Shown here piece after piece: positions 6,186 to 57,976 of a DNA stretch of 64,000 nucleotides. Each line of letters starts with the position of its first letter. Positions within the stretch are counted from its first letter, which is position 1. Location of the stretch: assembly GCA_004123355.1 (NCBI GenBank), contig SCHM01000003.1, forward strand, positions 1,798,001 to 1,862,000. The letters are read 5' to 3'. Made by a program: the position numbers and the translations under genes. The notes below the pieces were generated by a model that did no database searches, was not told where the DNA came from, and saw only the letters and a list, made by a program, of their open reading frames with translations. The stretch is from Amphirosellinia nigrospora. Its lineage: Eukaryota > Ascomycota > Sordariomycetes > Xylariales > Xylariaceae.

Positions 6186-9100
6186 TTAATATTCATGATT
6201 GCCCCTCTTTAACCTCGAATACGGCCTCCGCTGCTGCTGTTCCTGGTAATCCGGGAACATGGTAGGATAGAACTCGGACCACCCTCCCATGCGGACACGG
6301 AGGAGGTTGTATTTCTCCGGGTCCTCAGACGCAGCCTGATACGTGTCGAGATCGGCGCACGTCAGAGTCAGCAGGTTCCCGCCCACGGTACCCTCGGCGA
6401 AAGCGCCGACGAACTCCTTCAGAGAAGCGAGCGGGAAGTCCTCTGGGATGTTCATGTCGATGGGCGCCGCGTTGGAGATGCCGATCTCCACCGAGTCGGT
6501 CTTGTAGCTCGCGAGCGCCTTATAGATATTGTTGTGCGGCGGCGCCGCGGGGAGGTCCTGTGGCGCCGGGACGGGCGACATGTCCGAGGCGATGGGCATA
6601 CCCTTGCGGCGCCCGTCGGCGGACGCGCCGCAGCTGAGCCCGTCGCCTACGAAACCCTCGAAAGTGCCCACGCCCGGCGTCACCACGAACTCGAAGTCGG
6701 GCCCGTGTTTGGCGTAGATGCTCTCGAGAACGGGCTTCAGACCCGTCGGCTTGCGCACGGCGTCGACGCAGAGCCGTACCATGTTGTCGATGAGCCACGT
6801 GCCTAGTTCCTTGACCTCCTCGTCGCGGTCGCCGCTCGCCCACTTCGGGAGCGCCAGCGCCACCTCGCGCAGCTCTTGGTACCGTACTGCGTTCGCGGCG
6901 GCGTTGGCGGGGCCCAGGCTCTTGTCTTGGAAGGGCTCGATCATGTTGTGCCCCCAGTCGCAGATGAGACAGCGGACCAGCTCCGATAGAGTCACGCGTG
7001 CGGTTGAGGGGTCGAAGACGAGCTTTTTGATGGCATAGAGGGAATCGATTGTGTTGGCTACGCCGATGCAGAGGGGTGCGACTGGGACGTGTTAGTTGTG
7101 CTTAGATGTTGTCGTGACTTGAGCTATCGGTGGGTCAGGAGTAATGGGCTTGTGATGAACCCTTAAGCTGTTGAGGTGGATAGAGATGAATGAGAGAAGG
7201 AAAAAGCCAAAAGAGATTTAAAAAAAAAACGAGTACTCACTAATATGGAATTTCGCGCCACCAGCTGTTAAATCACGCCCCGACTCAACGCAGCCATCAA
7301 GGAGCGCGGAGAGCAGAGGCAGAAGGGCATATACCCTCAAAGTTGCCGTAAGCGCTCAGCACAACATTGTAGCTCCGCTGCACGAGCCAGGCAAGTTGCT
7401 GAAGGAAAAGCTCCTTGAGGTGCTCGAAGTCCTTGATCTTGGACGGCACCGGGGTCCGGAAGGCCTGCTTCAGGCCGCGGAGATGCACCGATCCCGCGTC
7501 GCCGTAGGTCGAGCCCTGGTTGAGGGTCTGTTCCAGCGCCGCCATGGGCTCGACGTTGGTGAAGGTGAACTCGGACGCGCCGGTGAGCATGGGCTCGAAG
7601 CACCCGTCGGCCGCGTAGTTGCGCGACCACGCCGTGGTGACGGTCTCCCCCGAGCGGAAGAGGCCCTCGCAAAGCTTGTCGTCGTTGAAGAGGACTGGGT
7701 GGGCGCCGCCTGAGAGAATCGATGCGGCGGCTTCGTCGATGTATTCTTGTCCTATGCTCTTGTATAGCCGTAGCGAGACACTCGGTGCGTTGACGGGGAC
7801 GCGGCGTGAGGCCTTTAGACACAGCAGTGTGACGGGGTTGGCACCGCCCTCTGGAGTCTCAGAATCGGTCGGCTTGTACCCGCCGATGGTAATTTGTTGA
7901 ACCCACTGATTGATGCCACCGCCCTGGGGAAAGTTGCCGCCGAGACCGTTGATGGAGGTGGTGCCGTAGCTCCGGTAGTCGTAAATGAACGCGCGGTTCA
8001 CGAAGGCGTTCTCGCCAATCTTGATCCAGAGGCAGTCTATGATCTCCTGGGCGTAGTCGAGAGTGATCTTCTCCTTGAGATCTTTCTCGAGGAAGGGCCA
8101 GAGGATCTGGTCGATTCGGCCGAAGGCGGTGAGCTCACCGACGAGATGGAGACAGGCGTGGAGGGAGAAAATGAGCTGTACGGCATCTTGGAAGCTGGCG
8201 GGAGGAGAGTGCACGAGACGCTCCATGCGGTCTTTGACGTCGGCCATGTTGGCTTTGTCATCTGCATCGGTAGCTTGGTCGTGTGCTCGGCGGGCGATCT
8301 CTACCCAGTTCGTCATGTATGCCTGAACGCCTTTGAACGACTCGCTAGCAGAGACGTAGAATGACACCTTCTCGGCGCTGTCTTCTTGCTTCCCGGCCTC
8401 CTCGGCCCGTTTGTCGAGATCTGCAACCAGACCGGCTAGCCCTTGATCGACGAGAGTTTGGAAGTTGGGGACAACGTGTCCCATGGCCGACCCTTCACTG
8501 AGCTGGCACTTCAGCCATGCAGCAATGGTTTCGTCTTCAGTCAAATAGGGAACTACCTCCTTTCCTCTTCCTAAGGTGAAGTCGGGAATCGCGCCAACGA
8601 CAAGCTCCTTGGCCGCTATGCGGACCAGGCCGGTCTCTTTCGCGATCTTTGAGTCTGGGGAGGAGAGAAGATTGGCTAGGGTCGCGAAATTCGCAAGCCC
8701 CTTCCGTTCAAGAATCGACTCGGGAACTGCGTCCTTCTTGACGACAGTGAGTAGGTCTTTCAGGTGTGGTAATTCAGGAAAGTGTTCACCCTTCATCCAC
8801 CCATCTCGCCAATGATTGAATGTTCTTGATAGGAGGCTCAACACGCGGACACTGGGCTGGTCGCCCGCGATATAGTACCCCTCTGCCATCTGATGCATGT
8901 AATCTTGGCTGTTATAGAAAAGGTAGCCATTTTTGCTGCGAAGCTTCCAATGGGGGTCTTCATAGGTATCGTCTCCAGGCCGGACGCCAGAGACCCCGAG
9001 CTCACGGGCCGCGGGAATGTACCAATAAGTACCGCCCTCGCCTTGTATGAAATCCATCAAGCGATCAAGAGGTCTCTCTGGACGGTCGCCAAGCATGCTC

Positions 9101-9936
9101 TGCAGGATGTCCTCGAACCGCTGTTGCTCATTGCAGAAGGCCACAAACATGACGCCTTCCTCGCGACTGGCGTGGCCGTCGGACTCGTCGTATGGCAGAG
9201 CCTGACGCAGCAGTTTTCTCTGGTCGCGGTTATGGTCCAGAGTATGAGCACGGTGAATATGAGCATTGGCGGATTTGGAAGCCTGCTGAGAAATTATCTC
9301 GCCGTTCGGTCGCCGCCCAATTACCGAATCTAGGGCCTCGCCGGGCTGGGAGCTGATGTCAGGCCAGTCGAAGACGAATTTCTGTGTGAAGCCGAAGGTA
9401 GCGCCGCTGTCTGGGCCATTGCCACCGACCAGAATGTCTTCGGCTAAGCTGATAGGATCATTGGGGTTGCTGATGTGATCGACGTAACGACCACCCATGA
9501 CTCGGCCATCTGGGCGCTTTCCCAGTTCCAGGCTCTGTATGTCATTGGCGAGCGGGAATAGATGTTGGATGAAGGTCGCAACAATCTCTGCCGCGGCTTT
9601 GCTGTCACGAGACTTGATATAGAGCAGGACATCTCCACCGGTGTCCTTGAAGTGGAGGCCGTGTTTGAGGACTTCGGTCGAGATCTTGATCTCCCGTTCA
9701 GTCCATTGGCCCCAGAGTGTCGGGGAAAAGCCGGCAATGAAAGCTTCGTCGGGGTGGTTGGTGTTGATCTCCTGGTCTAGGTTTTGGATGATCTTGAGCA
9801 GCTGTTCTTGCGTGCCCTTGTCGTGTTTCTTGAGAAAGATAGTCAAGATGTGACCGTAAATCGGTCTCATAGGAAGACCGCGCTGAGCAAGCCCGAGGGC
9901 TGAGCGGAGCGCTCTGTCCATTGTGTTCTTCACCAT
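6186..9936 (-). CDS. DyP-type peroxidase fused to a glycyl radical enzyme
   Basis: Starts at ATG 9936. Exon 1 runs to 7241, a 159-nt intron (7240-7082, GTGAGT...CAG) follows, and exon 2 is 7081-6186. One frame change in GAGGGTA near 7334 is required; removing one base gives about 1,196 residues. Residues ~1-345 form a DyP-type heme peroxidase: TGGDVLLYIKS (~99-109), distal Asp in GRYVDHISNP (D153; the usual GxxDG ends in His here), proximal His in ANAHIHRAH (H226), distal Arg R244 and GVMFVAFCNEQQRFEDI. Residues ~346-1196 are a complete glycyl radical enzyme: thiyl Cys779 in GCFEP, LLDGCVESGRDLTAGGAKFH, and the C-terminal radical motif RVRMGGWSEF. The single-Cys CFEP site resembles dehydratase or lyase relatives, not PFL with its Cys-Cys pair. 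Substrate unknown. Such enzymes need a radical-SAM activase; none is in the window. Confidence 0.88.
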
Positions 9937-23073: not shown

Positions 23074-26000
23074 TTATTTCTTCTTGCCGGTGATAGGAGC
23101 CAGGACAGAGCCTAGTCCTAGGCCATCAAGGACCTTAGTAAGCCCAAGGCCGCCCAAGAGATTATTGACAAGACCACCCAGACCGAGGCCGTTGAGTAGC
23201 TTGCCTACGAGTCCCAGAACACCGCTGAGCAGGAGGCCCACGGCAGCAATAATCTGGAACAAGGGCTCGGACAGCAGACCCCACAGGGGGTTGATACCCT
23301 TCTTGGCCTTGGGGAGGTTCTCTAGCTTGCGCTTCGCGGCCTCTATAGTCTCAGTTACTGTGCCTGTGAGCTCCTTTAGGAGTTCAGCCAGATGGTATTC
23401 TTCGGGCGTCGCCTCGCCGCCGGCGCTGTGGTGCTTGGCCTGCGCCGAGATACGGCCGTCGGGGTCGAGCCCGCGGATCACACCATTAGCTTCGGTGAGG
23501 ATCTTGCCGCCTTCTTCGATTAGGGGGCGGACTTGCTTGACGAGCTCTTCCTCGTCGCGGTCCTCTTCGGACTTGGCTTCTTCTTGGTTGATTCGCTGTA
23601 GATAAAAATGTTAGTCGTATTTCTCAGAGATAGTGTATATTCAATTCAAAGGATTCTCTCCAACTTACATCAACAATCATTCTGCAAATAGGCTTGATCT
23701 TGTCAAGCGACTGTGCAATGCAGTACGATATCTGCTTGGCGATCTTGGCGTCCTGTTCTTTCCTCAGGCGCTGTTCACGCTCCTCTTCTGTCTCTCCCTC
23801 CGGCTCGGGCTCAGGCTCGGGCTCAGGCTCGGGCTCGTCGGGAATCTCCGCGAGAAGCGAGCAGTGTCCGAGAACGTTACCCTTCTGATCGATAACATCA
23901 CCATCGTCATCAATCTTCTTGCCGGCGCATTGGCTGAGCTCACCCGTAGTAAGCTTACCGATGACATCGCCGTTCTCGTCAACGACATTGCCCTCGCGGT
24001 TCACCTTGCGCCCAGACATTGGGTTGACGTCCTTCTCGACCTCGGGCTCTTCCCACCGTTCCGCGTGTCCCAAGACATTTCCGTTCTTGTCGCAGATGTC
24101 GCCATCGTCGTCGACGGGGCGTCCAGCCAGTACCTTCGGGTCGCCCGAGACTATTCGGCCTACGACATCTCCGCCAGCCGTCACGACCTTGCCCTCCTTG
24201 GTTACGGTGCAGCCTGAGAGCTCGGTAAAGGGACCCTCTTTCATACCCTCGCGCTCCGCCTCAGGGATAAGCTCGCACTTGCCGATTACGTCGCCGCCCT
24301 CGTTGCGGATAAAGCCGTTCTTATCGCACATCTTGCCGATGAGGCGCTGTAGCGAACCCTCGATCACGCGACCGTAGATATCGCCATGCGAGTCAACCGC
24401 GTTGCCGGCCTTGTTAATTCGCTTACCGGCGAGAGAGGACATGTCGACCTCCGGCTCAGGCTCCTCGGGCTCGGCCTCCCAACGCTCGGCACGGCCCAGC
24501 GTGTTTCCAGCCCGATCGAGGATATCGCCATCAGCATCGACGGCCTTGCCCTTGAGCTTCTTGGCATCACCTTCGACGACAATACCTATCTTTTCCCCGT
24601 TAAATAGGACGTCGCCGTCGTCACCGACAACAGCGTCGGGGAAATCCTCAAACGGTGCGGGCTCCTTGGCATCCTCACGTTCGCCGTCCGGGAGCGGCTC
24701 GGCCTTGCCAATAACGTGCCCAGCATCGTTGAAGATCTGGCCTTCGTCACCGACCTTCTTACCGGCTAGGTGCTTGACAATGCCCTGCACAACATGACCC
24801 CATACTTGACCCTTGTCGTCTACGACATTGCCTAATTTGTTGACCTTCTTATCTTTCAACATGGAGTAGTCAATCGGCACCTCTTCGGGCTCCTCGGGTT
24901 CTTCTTCCTCTTTTCGTTCGGCGTGGCCGATGACGTTGCCGTTTTTATCGAGGATGTCACCGTCGGCGTCGACCTTCTTTCCGATCAGCTTCTGCCAGTC
25001 ATCGCCAACTACGACGCCGACCTGGCGGCCTTCATATATGACCTTGCCGAACTTGTCGACTGTTGCGTCAGGGAAATCCTCAAATGGTGATGACTCGTTC
25101 TGGATGGCTTCAGGGAGGACCTCGACCTCGCCGATGACGTTGCCGCGATCGTCCCAGACCTTACCGTCCTTGTCGGGCACCTTGCCGGCCATCTTCTTTG
25201 GGTCGCCACTCTTGACCCTTCCGACTGGGTTACCCTTCTCATCAACGACGTTACCAGCCTTGTTGATCTTCAGGCCTCAAGGATCGACACACTTGGCCCT
25301 GCCGCTTCTTCGGCCTGCTTCTTCGCGGCCTCGATGGCATCTAGGCGTTCGGCAGCCTCGGGAATCTCCTCCTTAATGCGCTCGACGATGCTACCCTCAG
25401 GCACCAAGTCAACCTTACCAAGTTGGGTATCGTTATCGCCGAGGAGGTTGCCATGCTCATCGATGCCCTTAATTTCTTTGCCAACTAGGCTCTTGTAATC
25501 CTGCCCCTCCGCCAACTTGCCCAGAATCTTGCCATTCTGATCTGTGATTTGGCCATCCTCTGCAATATTGAATGGGCTCTGGAACATGGCAATGACCTTT
25601 CCGGCCACAGATGAAGTGAAGGATGGGATCTTAATTGGTGCTTGCTTCTGGGCTTCCTCCAGGGCATTCAGTCGGTCAGCGGCCTCAGGAACCTCCTCCT
25701 TTACGCGTTCGGCCATGGAGCCCTCGGGCGCGATGTCTATCATGCCGAGGACGGTGTCGTTCTCTCCTAATAGGTTTCCATGCTCATCGATACCCTTGAC
25801 TTCCTTTCCAATCAGGTCCTGTATGTCCGAGCCCGCGGAAAGCTTGCCCAGGACTTTGCCTGATTGATCGATGACCTTGCCACCATCGGCAATGGTGAAA
25901 GGACCGTCGAACAAGGCGACAACCTTGTTCCGTATCGAAGGCGAAAACGAAGGAATATCGTCCATGGGAATTGGAGCTTGCTCATCGAGTCCTTGGGCTT

Positions 26001-27149
26001 TGGGGCCTATCTTCGACGGGGATTCCTCAGCTACCCCCTGGGCTTTGGAACCGACAGCTGATGGGGCGTCTTCGCCTGTTTCTTTTGCTTGTTTTGTAGC
26101 TCCCTCTACCGCATCTCCGGCAGGTTCTGTTGCGCCATCGGCGACATCACCAGCTTTTTCTGTTGCGCCGTCGGCGACATCACCGGCAGCTCCGGTTGCG
26201 TCCTCGGGGACATCACCAGTTTTCTCTGTTGCGCCGTCGGCGACATCACTAGTTTTCTCTGTGGCGCCGTCGGCGATATCACTAGTTTTCTCTGTGGCGC
26301 CGTCGGCGACATCACTAGTTTTCTCTGTGGCGCCGTCGGCGACATCACCGGCAGCTCCTGTTGCGTCCTCGGCTACGTCGCCAACGGCATCCGTCGCTCC
26401 TTCGACGGCATCGCCGGCAGCGTCCGTGGCACCTTCAGCAGTCTCGCCAACGGCGCCCGTAGCATCCTGGGTTCCAGTAGCTTCTCCGGCCGCATCAGTG
26501 GCGCCCTTAGCTGTATCGCCAACTGTGCTAGTGGCGCCCTTCGCAGTGCGTCCTACACCGCTGACGGCAGAGCCCGCGGTCTTTCCGGCACCGCTAACGG
26601 CAGAGCCTGCCGTTTTAGCAACACCTCCGAGAGCGCCTCCAAGGCCGCCGCTACCACCTTCATCTTCATTTTCATCTTCAGCTTCATCTTCTTGGTGTTG
26701 GTCGTACTGATCCTCTTCGTCGTCCTCGCCTTTTGCGTGGTCCTTGACGGATTGTGTGGTATAGTTAAGATTCGACGCCGTATCCTCCAAGGGCTCGGCC
26801 TTGCCAACGACACCGCCGTCTTCGTCTAATATGTCTCCCTCTTGTGTGACGACGTACCCGGCAAACTTTGACGCCTCGCCGTCCGTCACCTTGCCGATGG
26901 GGTTTCCATCGTCGTCGATGACTTCGCCGCTGTCGTTAATGCGGCCCGCCGCTGGCACCATCTCACCTTCGTTATCGCCGCTTGAGCTCCCCAAATTTGA
27001 CTCAGACACGTCTGGCATTGATCTCGGCGCCGACTTTTGGTCTTGGGGGTCCGGGGAGCGGGAGCATTGTTTTCTGATCGGTTTGTTTGCGACGCGGCCT
27101 TGCCCTGAGGGCTGGCCACGTCCTTGGCTGATTCTGCGATGCCCGACAT
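23074..27149 (-). CDS. Large DUF3659/LEA-like repeat protein
   Basis: Exon 1 27149-23669, 73-nt intron, exon 2 23595-23074. With single missing bases supplied at AAAA (27034-27037) and at GG (25273-25276) it makes 1,334 residues. ATG 27149 (MSGIAESAKDVASPQG) is preferred over 27018. Order: a disordered N-terminus; DUF3659 units (GEVIDDDGNPIGKVTDG type); a LEA-like block of 11-residue DVADGATEKTS repeats (about 26,100-26,600); two more DUF3659 blocks; then about six long double repeats of the form VDADGDILDKNGNVIGHAE. A Glu/Pro-rich EPEPEPEPE linker leads to a helical C-terminus with a Gly/Leu-rich LGLGGLVNNLLGGLGL segment. No signal peptide. LEA-like proteins protect other proteins and membranes during water stress; that role is by analogy. 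Confidence 0.85.
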
Positions 27150-28968
27150 GGCGGCGGGATGGGTAGTAGTTACAAGATTCTCGTGTGTGGTAGGTTCTTG
27201 GGTATATCTAGAGGTCTGAATTGGATATGGATCAGAGTCGTGGGCTTTGGGTCTAATGGGGTAGTTTGGATTAAACATTGGGGTTTTGAGTTACATTCAA
27301 ATGTTGAGGTTGTGTCGTGGGTTTGATATTTAAACGTATTCTGAGGTTCTGTCAATGATAAAGGAAAGCTCTACATACGTCACTCACTGGTGGAGGGCAA
27401 GGCTTATTCAATGAAATAATGCCATTCCTCTCACGCTTTCCACAGGTTTAACCCCTTCGTACATAATGTTCGACGTCATGTCCCTGGGTTCGCGTTGGAG
27501 ATACATGGCTAGAACGTCATTCAGGCCGCCACATGGAACCCATGTTGAGAACTCACATCCTACTCAAGCCACGGATGAGGCTACTTTGCATGAACACAAC
27601 CTTGCCGATCCGAGAACGAGGTGGGTAGGCTATGATGGTATCAACAGCGAACTATCCACCATAACCCAGCGAATCTAGGCTTGCTAGTTGTTACCCGGTT
27701 GCAGTCGTGTGGTGTTTAAGTCAGGTCTATGTGTGACTGGGAGCTAATCCCCGTCGTGGATGGCCAGCCTACCTTGTCATTGGCCAAAGGGAGAGGTTAG
27801 GCGGCCAGAAAACAAGAATTTCGACATGAAGGCTCACGTTTCACAACGACACTACTGGGAGCGCTTTCTCCGGATCTCGATCTCAGTGAACCATCTCACC
27901 GTGTCATGATGGATGCCGCTGCTTGTTCCAAGGGTCCGGTTGCATAGCAAGCACATGGATATTAGAACCGAAACCAAAGACCAGAACTCGCCAGGAGTTA
28001 CCATGTAAACATGGCGTGTAGTTCCCATCCCCTTGGATCTTCATCAGCCACGCAAACAATGACAGCCACACTTGACGAGGGTTCGTTACGAGCTGCCTAG
28101 GTCGGCTTGAAGGCCGTTGGATCGTCGTTTTTAGTATCATCGCGGCGCGGTCTCGGCGATCCGATAGCGTGCGCAGAGCAGTGGGGAGGTGTGTCTAGAG
28201 CAAGTGTCTAGAGCGAGCGGAATAGAGTGCCGCGAGGATATAGGGCGTGTAACATGGTCCATGGCGGATGGTAGGGGGTGGAGGGATAATGCGCCCTCGC
28301 CTGATTGTTGCAGCAGCTGGCCCTCGCCCAGGCAGGACCCAGGCAGGACCCAGGCCCCAGCAATAAGCAATACTTAAGCTAGTGGGGAAAGTGATCCGCA
28401 GCTAACGTCACCCTGGTCACCTTCCCGGGCGTCGAAGATCTCGTAACCGGTTTTCCGGCGTCCGTCAAGCCACACAACGAATGATCCACGTCGAATCAAC
28501 GTCATAAGCAGCTTAGTGTAAGGAGATTCATGCGGCTAAGGAGCAAAGCTACCGAAGAACGGCCTCTAGACAGACTCCAGAGTTATCATAACCTCTAATG
28601 TTTTGAGGGGGGGTTTTTTTTGTTCTCATTAATCCCATATGTTGTGAGATGCTCGTACTGTGGTATTTATCCTTGACCACTATCCATAAGTGGCAATAGC
28701 TGCGAGAATATGAGTGTTTGTTGCACTATGCAACGATGGACGCCACACATATTTTAAGGCATGTTACAATATGCAATGATTTTGATGTTATGGGAGGATT
28801 AGAGATGGTTTGGTCAACTGCATGGCGAGTATTCCTGATATATATACCTCGTATCGTCTCTCACGATTATGTCCTAAGCATTATGTCGTCTCCCGTATAC
28901 CTAATCGCAAGTAGATCTGCCCAGCTCCCTTCTTCCTTGAATATTCCAAAAATAGCATTTGACTTTTC
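27150..28968. other. 1.8-kb spacer between the two DUF3659 genes
   Basis: No gene. Small tandem duplications: AGTGTCTAGAGC at about 28190-28213 and CAGGACCCAG at about 28330-28352. A G7T8 run lies near 28605-28620. Confidence 0.4.
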
Positions 28969-30823
28969 CTATCCCTGAGATTCAGAAGGTTGACGTGAAA
29001 AAGTGGTAGGAATCCGTATCGTGAGCTGTATCCCATCCGTCGTTGACTTCACATCCAAAAACAGATCTGACGGGCTGCCACCCGTATGTGCATTGACTTT
29101 AGGCTTCTGCTCCTGCTTTTTCGTTTCCTCGGCGTCTGCTTTGGTAGATGATTTTGACCTATTTGGTGGTTCATGAAATTTGCCAATAATCTTGCCGTCC
29201 GAGTCGAGAATATTGCCTTGATGGTCCACTTTGAGGCGACCTAGGAGATCGCCGGGGATCTCGGTAGGAGATGGCGGGTTAACGAAGTTTTCGGACACGT
29301 AGCCCACGATCTCTCCTCCATCTCCGTAGACTTCCCCATCATCTGACACCTTCTTGCCCACCATAGCGGGTAGGTCTCCCGTCGCATGGCCTAATACCTC
29401 ACCCGACTCGTCAACTATGTTGCCAACATCATCGACCACGTGGCCCGCGAGCCCCTGCGCTAATCTTGCGAGGTCCGTGGGAGGTGAAGAGTCGATGTGA
29501 GGGATCTTGGGTATTTTGGGGATTGGAGTGATACTGGATGACGTGGAATGCACGGACGGGTCTAGAACCTCCTCGGGAGGGTCTTGCGAGTCGTCCTCTG
29601 ATATGACGGGCAAATCATCAGTACTTCGCAGGTTTTCGACGCTGGGTAGATTTTCGACACTGGGTAGATCCTCAAAATCTCCAAGATCGTTGCTCTCTCT
29701 TCTTTGTTTTTCATATTGTGGTGTGTTATTCGCCGTCTTTTCTAGCCTTTGAAATGGAATTTCGATGCTCCGTTGCACATGCGCTGGTCTGCCCATGTTA
29801 TCAATTACGTGCGCGTCACCAGTCTGATCATCAGTTTGAGGGGCCCCATGTGGCTGCTTTTAGTACCCGAAGCTGAGCTTGGTACAGCGGGGCGAGCTGC
29901 CTGCGAGATGTTGGAAACATCGGGTTCGCCCATTTTGTTAGTAGGTTGAGCTATCGGCTCGTTGTCTTCGGTGTCCCTGAATGTTCCATCGGCCGCCTTA
30001 GAGACATCAGCGGGTTCTGGCGGGTGAGGGGTTTCGCTATCTTGCGATTGTTGTTGTGAGTTAGCACGGCCCAGCCTCTCGTCTTTCTGGCCGCCGTTAG
30101 TGGCCTGGCTAGCTCGATCGTTCGGAGTTTGCGTCTCATCCGCCGAGGACTTGGCGGGCCGGGGGGTATCTTCCCCAGAGCCATGAGAGCCATTGCCGGC
30201 CAACGAGTTCACGAAATGACTCATCTCGGGGATACCTCTGTCTTTAAAATACTTAGCTATGCCGGCCGGGAATTGAAATCATCATCAGAAGTGCTGTCCG
30301 CATCATCTTGGGCGAGAGACTGTCTGTTGCGCTGCCCGAGTCCCCTGTGAACTTGCCTGCTATACCCCTGGTCAAACCATCGGCAGACTCCTTCGCTGAG
30401 TCCTTGGCGCGAGATATCTTGTCCTTGAAGCTTGGAGGAGAGTCTTTCGCACCCTGAGAGGCTTGTCTGGAGAGAGGAGAACGAGCGCCCGTGCTCCGGC
30501 TGGCAGTGTCGGCGGGGTGAGGATGTAGTTATCGACTAAGCCGGTGGTATCAGAGCCTGCGGCTTCGCCCAGCTCGTCCGACGTAGCCGACACGTTCGTC
30601 AGAGGTGCGAGGTTCGTAGACTTGGCAACGCTGTCGATGAATGATTCGCCCGAGGGATCTGGCGACTCGGACACGACGGAGCGCGGTGCATCATTCGCCG
30701 ATTTCTGTGCAGAGCTCTGTCGCGTCAATTGGGGAGATGGCCGCGATCGAGTCGGCGTCTTTGTTTCCCTCGCCGGCTTGAACAGCTTCTTCGGGGAGTC
30801 TGGGGGGCTAGAGCGTCTGCCAT
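28969..30823 (-). CDS. DUF3659-containing hydrophilic protein
   Basis: Starting at ATG 30823 and supplying five single bases (at G6 30802-30807, near 30490, near 30330, near 30270 and at GGGGCCCC 29840-29847) gives 619 residues with no internal stop. The N-terminal 400 residues are disordered, rich in Ser, Pro, Asp and Glu. The last 230 hold DUF3659 units (VVDDVGNIVDESGEVLGHA, KVSDDGEVYGDGGEIVGYV, KVDHQGNILDSDGKIIGKF). The C-terminal tail DLFLDVKSTTDGIQLTIRIP is beta-like. It lies in tandem, same strand, with the larger DUF3659 gene 1.8 kb away and is probably a diverged paralog. All five breaks are apparent one-base deletions, which points to sequence error. Confidence 0.78.
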
Positions 30824-51063: not shown

Positions 51064-53450
51064 TTAGCTGAACTTGTCATTAGGTTTGAATCCCGCCTTT
51101 TCGCAAGCTTTCGTGAACTCCTTAAGCAGCGACTATAAATTCACGTTAAGGAGGCTATCAACAATGACTGGAGATGGGGCAAAAAACATACCTCGAAGTC
51201 ATGGTCTTCCAGCGACCCAAACACTTTGTTTTTGTCCAGTTTGAGCTGTGCCACTCTGGGGCTCTTGATGCCGAAAGCAATGCGGGCAAGGAGCCGTGGG
51301 TCGTCCCGGACATCACAGGCCGCCAAGATGGCGCGGATACCCGCTACGTCAACGCTCGGCTTGGGTTCCTGGGCAAGCGCAATCGGTTTCCCGGTCAGGC
51401 AATACGTGCAATTCCCACACTTGGACTTCCCGTCCGGGAGCTCCATGCCGAAATACCCCGTGAGAGCCCCAGCGAAGCATTTCTTGTCGGTCAGCAAGTC
51501 GCAAACGGCCTGGAATCGCCCCATGGCATCCTTCTCACGATCTTCCATCTCGGCATGTAATTTGTCGGTGATCTCGCCTACTTCCTTCGGTGTGCTGGGT
51601 AGTTTCTTGAGGACCTTGTACCGGTTTACCACGCCTGTTGCTTTGAGCTTGATCATGCCTTGATCATTAAATCGATTCAGCTTCCTGATGAGGTCCGCGC
51701 GCAGTAATCCGGCATTTTTCGCAACGGCGGGGACATCGATACTATAAAACTTTTTCGCCTTCTTAGAATTTGCAGCGATGGCTTTCGCTTCGGGCGTTGT
51801 GTCTTGCTTAATACGGGTATCGTAGCCTGGCCCGGCTTCAAACTGATAAGAGCTGTATTCGGGGGTGATGGCTCGAATAAGACCAAATCGCAGCTCGATC
51901 GTTGCGAGGATGATACCAAGTGCGTTAGCTCTCACATCATGTTCCTTCCCTAATGCTAATTGGCTTAACTTGATTACTTCATTGCCACCAGCCTCTTTTA
52001 TCTTGGGTTGGGTGATGAATAGGTCCTCTAGTAGTTTCTGTAGTGACTGCCGAGAAGGCAGGTCGCCTCGGACAAAGCTCTCTCTCAACCAAAAGTCGTC
52101 TCTACATAGGTACAGCATACAGAAACTTGGTTTCCCGTCTCGCCCAGCTCTGCCGACTTGTTGGGAATATTCTTCGATTGTGCTAGATATGTCGTAATGT
52201 AGGATATTTCGAATATCCGCCTTGTCAATACCCATTCCAAAGGCGATAGTAGCCACCACAATGCGGACGCTACCTGCCATAAAGGCGTCCTGGGTCTGAG
52301 TTTTCCTATCCGTGGAAAGACCAGCATGGAAAGCAGCAGTGCTATGACCGGCCTTGGAGAGATGATCCGCAATATCCTCAGCCTGTTTTTGAACCGTCAC
52401 ATAAACTAGGGTAGGTCCGTCGTGTTGCTTGAGAAATTTTAGTAGCCGAGGGAATTTGTCCTCTCTCTTTCTACCGCTTCTGCGTGAAGTTGTAGGTTGG
52501 GCCGGTATGGCGAGGTGCGAAATACATTGTGTTCCCGAATATCGAAAGCCTTGCGAACGTCCTCAGCGACGCGAGGTGTGGCTGTTGCCGTGAGGCAAAT
52601 GACACGCTCAGCTTTGATCTCGGTTACGAAGCGAGCAACCTTGAGATAGTCTGGTCGAAAAGAATGACCCCATTCAGATATACAGTGAGCCTCGTCGACG
52701 GCGACGAGACGAATACCACCTGGAACATACTTGATGCTTTCGACAAACCCTTCGTTGTTGAGTCTTTCCGGTGCGCAGTACAATATCCTCAGTTTCCCTG
52801 AATTAGTTAGCTTCTAAGAGGCTCTCGTCACTGATAGGCACAGAGACGCATCAAGGAGCAGTAGCTACCTTCTTGCATAGAAGCATTGATACTCTTCTGC
52901 TCTTCGTAAGTCTTGGTTGAGTCCAGACACGCAGCAGAGATGCCACGACGTTGTAGAGCATCAACCTGATCCTTCATCAAGGCAATTAAAGGCGACACAA
53001 CAATGGTGATTCCCGAGCCTATTGCTGCCGTTTTCGATTGTCTTTGGGTTAACCCAGCAGCATCTAGTTCCGGAAAGGCAATACCAGGTACCTGATAGCA
53101 CAGCGATTTACCGGCACCGGTAGGAAATATAACAAGAGCGCTCTCTCCCTGGAGAATAGCTCTAATAGCAGCAGCCTATCACAGAGAGTGGTCTTAGTAC
53201 TGGCTATCTAGGGAGTTGGGTACACGGTTGCACACTTGTTCATGCGGAAGTCTTCGTAGCCAAAGTTCTGCTTCAAGATGGATTTTGCGATAGAGTCATA
53301 CTGCTCATGCGACGAAGCGTGCTTCACGCGCTTGCTGCCGTGTTCATCGCTGTTGTCGTGAATCGGGCGGACGCGCTTCGAACTAGCCGAGAGCAACGCG
53401 TCTGCGTCGATGTCATCGAGCAGCTCATCGCCCGAGCCGTAATCAGACAT
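51064..53450 (-). CDS. RecQ-family DNA helicase
   Basis: ATG 53450 (MSDYGSGDELLDDIDADALL) and an acidic N-terminus. Short introns lie near 53232-53176, 52868-52800 and at the 3' end (about 51190-51136). Helicase motifs run in order: I FPTGAGKSLCYQVPG, Ia VVSPLIALMKDQVDAL, II VAVDEAHCISEWGHSF (DEAH), III CLTATATP, IV TLVYVTVQKQAED, V VRIVVATIAFGMGIDKADI and VI QQVGRAGRDG. The RQC zinc site is KKCFAGALTGYFGM...KCGNCTYC. The last exon adds SLLKEFTKACEKAGFKPND. It unwinds DNA 3'-5' in recombination and fork repair. At roughly 720 residues it is a short RecQ without an obvious HRDC domain, so not a full Sgs1/BLM type. One frame change near 52445 interrupts it. Confidence 0.88.
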
Positions 53451-56447: not shown

Positions 56448-57976
56448 ATGTCGTCTCCTCTTATAAGAAAGAATCTTGCTGATCTCTGCACTGACGAGAA
56501 GGACAACCTTGTTAGGGCCTTCAGCGCCATTCAATGTCTCGACCCCTCAGACCCTGATTCATACTTAACTATTGCTGGCTATCACGGTATACCCGGAAGC
56601 TACTACTGTCACCATGGCGATGTGCTCTTCCCGACGTGGCATCGCGCATATCTTAACAGGCTCGAGAAGGCCCTCCAGAAGCAAGTTCCCGGAGTCACCA
56701 TGCCCTACTGGGACCAAATTGACACTCTCGCACAAGGGGTTCCAATCCCGACCATTCTCACTGATAAAGACTACCGATTTGCCGACGGCGCTGTCATCCC
56801 TAATCCGTTATACTCGTACACTCTCCAGCAGACTATCAAGGATGACGGTAAGGGTGATGGAGGCCATGAGATTGGCCTTTACGACAAGCCTCAGGGCTAC
56901 GCTACCGTCCGCTACCCATTCTCCGGCTTGGTAAATGACGAGTATAAGCATGAGACGGAGGAGCATAATAAGATATACGAGGCCATGGGCACCGCCAATA
57001 CGACGCAGAAGCTCAATACCAACGTCTTCACGTGGCTTTTCGCATCATCGTACATTAACGATAAAGGAGAGAAGCTTCCAGCGGGAGTTAGGTACAGATA
57101 CAAAGACTGTCTGAACGCCCCGAACTACACTACTTTTTCGAACACAAGCTCGGCAGAGCAGTGGAACGCAGAACACTGTGGGAGGGTGATATATCCCATA
57201 GAAAATCCGCACAACAATATCCATGCTGCCGTAGGCGGTTTTGAGGTCCAGGGGATGATGACTACGACTACATCCACTTCGCGAATGGCGACATGGGGGA
57301 GAATGAAACTGCAGCCTTCGACCCCATCTTCTTTCATCATACTTGGATCGACTACCTGTTCTGGAATTGGCAAGTCAGACACAACTCAACTCACGGGTTT
57401 ACGTTTTTAAAAGGATACAAAGGCGTTGATCACTACACGCCCCAGAGTCCTCTAGAACCCTTCAAGCGCAGCGATGGATGCACACCCATGACGTCTCAGG
57501 TATGCATAAACTTCTACTCCTAAAGTCTCATGTTATAACTTGCATAGGACGTGGCAAACATCGCCGACCTAGGTTATACCTACGACCATCTAATCCCACT
57601 CCCACGCGACAGCCGCGAAGGCCGCGAGATAGCATCAGCGCCATCACCACGCTTGAGAATCCCCAACCTCAGTCGTCGCCACATCAGTGGCACCTTCGTC
57701 ATCTCTGTATGGGTCGAGAACGACAAAGGCAAACAGGACCTAATCAGCGCCGATGCGATCCTGAGCCGCTGGAACTTGAGCAGCTGCGAGAACTGCCAAG
57801 AACACCTCGACTTTCAACACTTCGTGCCATTACTGGGGTGGGACAAAGAAGATGCTGAGGATAAGAACGGCAAGAGTAGATTCTCGTATAAATTACATAC
57901 GAGACAAAACCCGGATGGGCTTCTAGGGGACCGTGATGGTCTGCCTGGGTTGGAGTTGGATACTGAAGGCTGCTAG
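56448..57976 (+). CDS. Tyrosinase (type 3 copper phenol oxidase)
   Basis: ATG 56448; exon 1 to 57499, a 48-nt intron (57500-57547), exon 2 to 57976. One G is missing from GGGG at 57251-57254; with it the protein is 493 residues. CuA ligands: H46 (AGYHG), H56 in the C54-H-H56 thioether motif (YYCHHGDVLF) and H65 (PTWHR). CuB ligands: H255 and H259 (NPHNNIHAAVGG) and the His of DPIFFHHTWIDYLFWNW. A C-terminal beta domain (SGTFVISVWVEN, ending LELDTEGC) corresponds to the lid removed on activation of fungal tyrosinases. There is no signal peptide, so it is intracellular like classical fungal tyrosinases. It oxidises monophenols and o-diphenols to quinones for melanin-type pigments. It stands alone, with no pigment cluster visible. 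Confidence 0.92.

Follow-up and report, generated by a model that had tools for sequence, protein, structure and literature searches.

A DyP-type heme peroxidase fused to a glycyl-radical-type enzyme in Amphirosellinia nigrospora, and its large, mainly bacterial family

Gene layout and domain composition

The window analyzed here is a stretch of 64,000 nucleotides from the ascomycete Amphirosellinia nigrospora (contig SCHM01000003.1, positions 1,798,001 to 1,862,000), and it carries on its minus strand a gene in which a DyP-type heme peroxidase is joined to a glycyl radical enzyme (GRE) module, referred to below as DyP-GRE (Table 1). An earlier note on this DNA had proposed such a fusion in an ascomycete, and both domain profiles indeed exceeded their cut-offs in the open reading frame (ORF) at 9936–7297. 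The DyP family profile TIGR01413 scored 133.2 bits (cut-off, 100.5) and PF20628 scored 78.6 bits (cut-off, 20) in this 879-aa ORF, while PF02901, the profile of the barrel resembling pyruvate formate-lyase (PFL), was passed by the window exons with 238.8 and 51.3 bits (cut-off, 24.3). A codon check found D153, H226, and R244 where the note had put them and located the Cys of GCFEP and the Gly of RVRMGGWSEF. Its description of one coding path held in part: the two domains share one open frame, but a frame break lies just before the probable intron.

Table 1. Features of the DyP-GRE gene (window positions)
Feature	Position	Strand	Basis or remark
879-aa open frame with DyP module and N-terminal/central GRE part	7297..9936	-	ORF and profile matches; ends at premature stop
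DyP-type heme peroxidase domain	9001..9843	-	TIGR01413 match, aa 32-312
Distal Asp D153	9478-9480	-	codon position
Proximal heme His H226	9259-9261	-	codon position
Distal Arg R244	9205-9207	-	codon position
PFL-like GRE domain	7363..8520	-	PF02901 match, aa 473-858
GRE His	8476-8478	-	codon in GRE domain
Catalytic Cys (GCFEP)	7600-7602	-	codon in GRE domain
GRE Glu	7594-7596	-	codon in GRE domain
Frame break	7241..7340	-	879-aa frame stops at 7297; relatives' conserved peptide runs on in another frame
Probable intron, 159 nt	7082..7240	-	GTGAGT donor, CTAAC branch-like site, CCCAG acceptor
Last exon: rest of GRE barrel, RVRMGGWSEF loop	6186..7081	-	
Loop Gly	6282-6284	-	
Loop Trp	6279-6281	-	

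The fusion gene occurred in a single copy in the A. nigrospora genome (48.1 Mb, 11 contigs). A second DyP-like place (L002, G000 C5:3957291-3957956) was distant, with 23% identity and an E value of 6.4e-6. Among the matches listed, the closest relatives of the fusion were those of Xylaria cubensis and X. longipes, which were 90% identical. In a hand comparison, the intron borders (7240–7082) matched the X. cubensis protein P0003, and a real intron is plausible at this place. The plausible intron, the assembly of the genome into few contigs, and the Xylaria orthologues with up to 90% identity support the view of the earlier note that the gene is not contamination. No signal peptide was apparent on the DyP-GRE chain upon inspection by eye.

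Extent of the DyP-GRE family

In three protein searches, 148, 342, and 629 proteins passed the respective cut-offs, the last number coming from a deep-alignment search at E ≤ 1e-20; the best 120 of each were listed. Both domains were found in 117 of the 120 rows listed for the first search (three had one domain), 111 for the second (nine had PF02901 only), and all 120 for the deep-alignment search (PF02901 and PF20628), and some of the one-domain rows resemble partial gene models. The fusion is therefore far beyond chance. Unfused sisters may exist among family members below the best 120 listed. The search of fungal and bacterial proteomes for proteins with both domains, which the earlier note had proposed, yielded a large family in both groups; far from being peculiar to fungi, the fusion belongs to a family that is mainly bacterial.

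The matches listed in the deep-alignment search included Myxococcota (Archangium, Corallococcus, Melittangium, Nannocystis, and Polyangium), Actinomycetes (Saccharothrix, Actinoalloteichus, and Actinophytocola), Chloroflexota, Bacteroidota (Lewinella), a cyanobacterial bin, Longimicrobium, Nitrospira, and Reyranella, as well as one eukaryote transcript set. Named members of the carrier phyla are typically aerobic. The fusion was rare in the bacterial genomes sampled: of 399 from a single order, 4 carried it at E ≤ 1e-40, including G008 and G003 (one of the four is a fragment with a stop), and of 398 from the phylum, 2 did so at E ≤ 1e-60, including the centre genome G008. Five phage records gave partial matches with <60% identity, none of which spanned 80% of the query. 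On a plasmid of Hymenobacter cellulosilyticus (L093, 5905-9244), a PFL-like gene with the loop RVRMGGWTEF adjoins a DyP-type gene without being fused to it; this pair counts little because both genes are frame-broken as deposited and the case is a single one.

Conservation of the two modules

Conservation was surveyed in 220 proteins of at least 1050 aa out of the 250 best-scoring ones (24 shorter proteins and 6 pieces or unrelated sequences were dropped). In the DyP half, the proximal heme His was kept in 219 proteins (one gap) and the distal Arg in all 220, and the distal acid was Asp or Glu in 218 (D, 142; E, 76; N, 1; gap, 1). With the residues for it kept, the DyP half looks like a putative catalytic heme peroxidase. 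Known DyP-type peroxidases (7yzt, YfeX/deferrochelatase 5de0, encapsulated DyPs, and DypB) are alike in the Asp, His, and Arg and in domain-wide similarity, whereas the fusion differs from them in its attached GRE module, in the distal Glu of many members, and in a YWY motif at the DyP Trp in 113 of the 220 proteins, where four aligned DyPs read YYF, YFF, or LFF. Glu in place of the distal Asp, found in these 76 proteins, was noted for a deep DyP-GRE branch.

In the GRE half, all 220 proteins kept the His, the Cys, the Glu, the two Gly of the loop, and the Trp that comes next, and the Cys loop reads DGC[YF]EP in all but one, which did not match this regular expression. Alignment with glycerol dehydratase (VRMGGWTE vs VRVAGYSA) places the second Gly of the loop opposite the radical Gly of that enzyme. 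At the Trp beside this Gly, three aligned dehydratase-type enzymes have Tyr; at W679, which is also invariant in the 220 proteins, they have Tyr or Phe. A smaller set of 131 best-scoring proteins that included shorter ones gave the same picture, with one exception at the Gly and two at the Trp. Ratios of nonsynonymous to synonymous substitution (dN/dS), obtained for four bacterial pairs by a simple counting method, were 0.10–0.32 in the DyP half, 0.09–0.34 in the GRE half, and 0.009–0.30 in the last 169 codons, which were the lowest region in all four pairs, only slightly so in one. DyP-GRE is under purifying selection.

PFLs carry an adjacent Cys-Cys pair. The GRE half is not a PFL, because it has a single Cys and its score with the PFL model TIGR01255 was far below the cut-off (19.6 vs 994.2); this identity was rejected. 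The best NCBIfam GRE model was TIGR01774, that of B12-independent glycerol/diol dehydratase, at 122.6 (cut-off, 678.2). The catalytic Asp of glycerol dehydratase sits in GWHD, a stretch that faces an alignment gap in the fusion, and with the model far below its cut-off a standard glycerol/diol dehydratase was rejected as well. The Pfam Gly_radical profile PF01228 matched neither the A. nigrospora genome, nor the window exons, nor an Asticcacaulis fusion, and was barely passed by a Hymenobacter relative (22.7 vs 22.2). The dehydratase and lyase GREs that resemble PFL (glycerol/diol dehydratase and CutC; PDB 1r8w, 5i2a, and 9f3w) share with the fusion the PF02901 barrel, the G-C-x-E-P loop, the His, and the C-terminal Gly loop. 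In contrast to them, the fusion has RMGGW in place of RVAGY, a gap at GWHD, a fused peroxidase, and no linked activase that could be found. Judged from these residues, the GRE half looks like a putative catalytic glycyl-radical-type barrel. The database names on listed rows (formate acetyltransferase, choline trimethylamine-lyase, and 4-hydroxyphenylacetate decarboxylase) are probably wrong, also under the rival explanations discussed below.

Search for an activase

Known GREs receive their radical from a radical S-adenosylmethionine (SAM) activase, which is usually encoded next door. The neighbourhoods of 12 bacterial loci (14–23.5 kb) were scanned for ORFs of at least 150 aa with C-x3-C-x2-C, and a radical-SAM motif ORF lay beside DyP-GRE in none of the 12. 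By eye, no conserved pathway neighbours were seen in the bacterial loci inspected. The loci L092, L093, and L104 entered the neighbourhood analysis only and were left out of the genome-wide census.

Across nine genomes (eight bacterial carriers and A. nigrospora), TIGR02494 was above its cut-off in none. With G213 included, the census covered nine bacterial genomes that carry a full-length fusion, and four of these (Paracidovorax anthurii, Azohydromonas australica, Pseudomonas cichorii, and Collimonas humicola) had no match of the PflA or NrdG2 type; NrdG (TIGR02491) was not searched directly. For TIGR02493, the PflA model, there was no match in P. anthurii (G001), and the best matches were PqqE in A. 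australica (G002), QueE/PqqE in P. cichorii (G006), and MoaA in C. humicola (G008). All 12 first-look radical-SAM places in each of P. anthurii and C. humicola were scanned, and all 24 belong to other families, namely MoaA, LipA, HemN, HemW, BioB, RlmN, MiaB, RimO, PA0069, YgiQ, and QueE, together with B12-binding and SPASM types that had no exact family assignment. The fusion was the sole PFL-like gene in six of the eight bacterial carriers and in A. nigrospora. In 14 named control genomes, PFL-like genes were present in three and an activase cut-off was exceeded in three. In G243, which carries a partial fusion, PflA was above its cut-off.

Origin and transfer

In a quick, midpoint-rooted tree of 62 rows, all named fungal rows and five others formed one group of 38 rows (support 100), and P0033, P0055, and P0061 were the rows nearest the fungi. 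A separate group of 15 rows (support 94) included beta-proteobacteria and P. cichorii, and Chloroflexota and Asticcacaulis fell outside both groups. The fungal DyP-GRE is probably of bacterial origin, as the earlier note had surmised and as the placement in this tree indicates. The GRE halves of P. anthurii (L004) and P. cichorii (L009) are 96% identical; because these hosts belong to different classes, this identity points to recent transfer of DyP-GRE between bacteria.

Frame break and other ORFs of the window

The peptide CPSPLLSxxxDGCxExGxDxTxGGA of the relatives is present in the window from 7241 to about 7330, but not in the frame of the 879-aa ORF. Of the two Cys residues in this stretch, 218 of the 220 relatives keep C871 and 219 keep C883. 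When single introns of 45–400 nt were tested, only 7334-7082 (253 nt) and 7334-7058 (277 nt) were in frame, and mending by another single intron was rejected since both would delete the conserved stretch. Intact versions of the gene are carried by relatives such as X. cubensis and X. longipes. Because the conserved stretch is out of frame and the in-frame splices would remove it, the A. nigrospora copy is either a pseudogene or loss allele, or an assembly error.

Elsewhere in the window, several repeat-rich ORFs built of units of the type GKxVxxxGNVxDxxGxxxG lie on the minus strand at 23624-29796. By eye, an ORF on the plus strand at 56448-57410 resembles a tyrosinase/phenol oxidase (HHGDVLFPTWHRAY), and one on the minus strand at 51141-52400 resembles a RecQ-type helicase.

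Discussion

The existence of the fusion is known. In the passages devoted to it, Zamocky et al. (2016; PMC5041501) describe a DyP_B-PFL fusion in Chaetomium cochliodes and proteobacteria with the same domain order as the window gene, class the DyP half as B type, propose that the ascomycete fusion was obtained from proteobacteria by transfer, cite an earlier notice (Strittmatter 2014), and term the significance of the fusion elusive. The earlier note, which called the fusion unexpected, is to be corrected in this respect. The same passages contain no activase census of bacterial carriers and no residue survey, both of which were carried out here, and the window copy differs in being frame-broken. 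Term searches gave no peroxidase or DyP match in PMC11528403, which deals with non-glycyl relatives of GREs, and no DyP-PFL passage in PMC4420034. As far as open-access literature searches show, the breadth of the family over phyla, the invariance of both catalytic sets, and the undetected activase in several carriers are new.

Our preferred but tentative reading, which we regard as possible although short of probable, is that DyP-GRE is a GRE that works aerobically, its own peroxidase using peroxide to make or renew the radical. It builds on what the analysis shows: the fusion itself, the invariance of both catalytic sets, the spread over typically aerobic phyla, purifying selection, 12 loci with no adjoining activase gene, and four of nine carrier genomes in which none was detected. 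H2O2 or an organic peroxide would oxidize the heme to Compound I, and the hole would hop along Tyr/Trp residues, enter the GRE module, and arrive at the Gly loop, in which the Gly is next to the invariant Trp. From there the radical would reach the catalytic Cys, and the resulting thiyl radical would perform GRE chemistry on a small substrate. The fused peroxidase would thereby replace the role of the radical-SAM activase in anaerobes, or renew the radical after O2 damage. The retained fusion, the Trp beside the Gly, and the invariant W679 together suggest that oxidizing equivalents from Compound I may reach the Gly/Cys site; that the heme generates the radical, the route of transfer, and the class of substrate are what we infer. 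The earlier note's idea that the peroxidase supplies an oxidant, itself unproven, comes close to this reading. By analogy, the fusion would relate to anaerobic GREs as ribonucleotide reductase of class I, which is O2-dependent, relates to that of class III, a glycyl radical enzyme. Class I also relays an oxidant-made radical to an active-site Cys in a GRE-related barrel, but it does so with a di-iron/tyrosyl subunit instead of a heme and has no relation to DyP.

Several points weigh against a peroxidase-driven GRE. O2 destroys the glycyl radicals known so far, and a heme-activated GRE was not found in the open-access literature searched. The Trp after the Gly could be purely structural, dN/dS was higher in the GRE half than in the DyP half for two of the four pairs, and the gene may be dispensable in A. 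nigrospora, given that its copy is broken. As for the activase, the carrier genomes are drafts, the fusion of L004 lies 1.5 kb from a contig end with a short upstream side, and the census left aside Myxococcota, Actinomycetes, and Chloroflexota. The radical-SAM candidates scored were 12 of 22 in G002 and 12 of 17 in G006, so the absence there rests on the TIGR02493 and TIGR02494 searches. The PA0069, B12-binding, and SPASM-type radical-SAM genes of the carriers are of uncharacterized function. TIGR02493 (PflA) was above its cut-off in two of nine full-length bacterial carriers, both Andreprevotia, in each of which the PflA gene adjoins a canonical PFL. NrdG2 exceeded its cut-off of 131.15 in three of nine (G005, 197.5; G007, 193.0; G213, 175.0). 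In A. nigrospora, six PF04055 places were found (intron-split genes may be missed), five of which are lipoyl synthase, a biotin synthase fragment, MoaA, TYW1 (below its cut-off), and a viperin-like gene. The sixth (L060 811-2101; G000 C5:4.18 Mb) is PflX-like by eye, and the search for an activase elsewhere in the genome, which the earlier note had proposed, thereby produced one candidate, but one with only weak NrdG2 and PflA scores. In Chaetomium, a putative PFL activase is mentioned in PMC5041501, and the fusion was induced 3-fold by H2O2 and 18.5-fold by peroxyacetic acid; this induction fits peroxide activation and, equally, plain scavenging or defence.

The alternative that best survives, though we consider it doubtful, is that an ordinary or unrecognized radical-SAM activase acts in trans and the DyP half removes peroxide near an oxygen-sensitive radical in microaerobic cells. 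The PflX-like gene of A. nigrospora, the putative Chaetomium activase together with the peroxide induction (PMC5041501), and the PflA or NrdG2 genes of five of nine carriers would agree with it. The need for a radical-SAM activase asserted in the earlier note is put in doubt by the data; no gene of either type was detected in four carriers. The same four carriers count against an activase acting in trans, as do the lack of any match to the fungal PflX-like exon in the eight bacterial carriers and the 12 loci without an adjoining radical-SAM motif gene, and peroxide removal by itself would not require the two halves to stay covalently joined across hundreds of proteins.

It is unlikely that the two halves perform consecutive steps of a pathway, with the GRE product passed to the DyP or the GRE substrate made by it. 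One chain with both sites conserved would suit such tandem catalysis, as would the adjoining unfused genes on the Hymenobacter plasmid. Those genes are frame-broken as deposited, however, the loci inspected lack conserved pathway neighbours by eye, and the origin of the radical would be left unexplained where no activase was found. We think it quite unlikely that the radical has been lost, leaving the barrel as a scaffold or non-radical enzyme that forms the large C-terminal domain of a peroxidase. An activase undetected in four of nine carriers, the unmatched Gly_radical profile in A. nigrospora, and the divergent Gly loop speak for such a loss, whereas the Cys, Glu, and Gly-Gly-Trp invariant in 220 of 220 proteins and the lowest dN/dS in the C-terminal part in four of four pairs (one only slightly) speak against it. 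That the fusion or the frame break stems from assembly or annotation is very improbable: an assembly indel could account for the frame break, to which this explanation is confined, and a misassembled junction, which the earlier note had named as what would overturn the fusion, is contradicted by hundreds of fused records from different organisms.

Taken more broadly, the idea of a peroxidase-driven GRE would make DyP-GREs the aerobic counterpart of the GREs, in which a built-in heme peroxidase makes the protein radical from peroxide without SAM or an activase; in this general form we hold it to be somewhat doubtful. Textbooks present GREs as anaerobic enzymes dependent on a radical-SAM activase, and to our knowledge no SAM-independent way to start one was previously known. 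Both rules would be broken by a large family of GREs that occurs in lineages typically aerobic, is joined to a peroxide-using heme module, and in several carriers lacks a recognizable activase. If the idea is true, myxobacteria, actinomycetes, soil bacteria, and filamentous fungi, all typically aerobic, carry out glycyl-type radical chemistry, and the family would offer oxygen-compatible radical catalysts. The role of the DyP-PFL fusion, termed elusive in print, would become a testable question.

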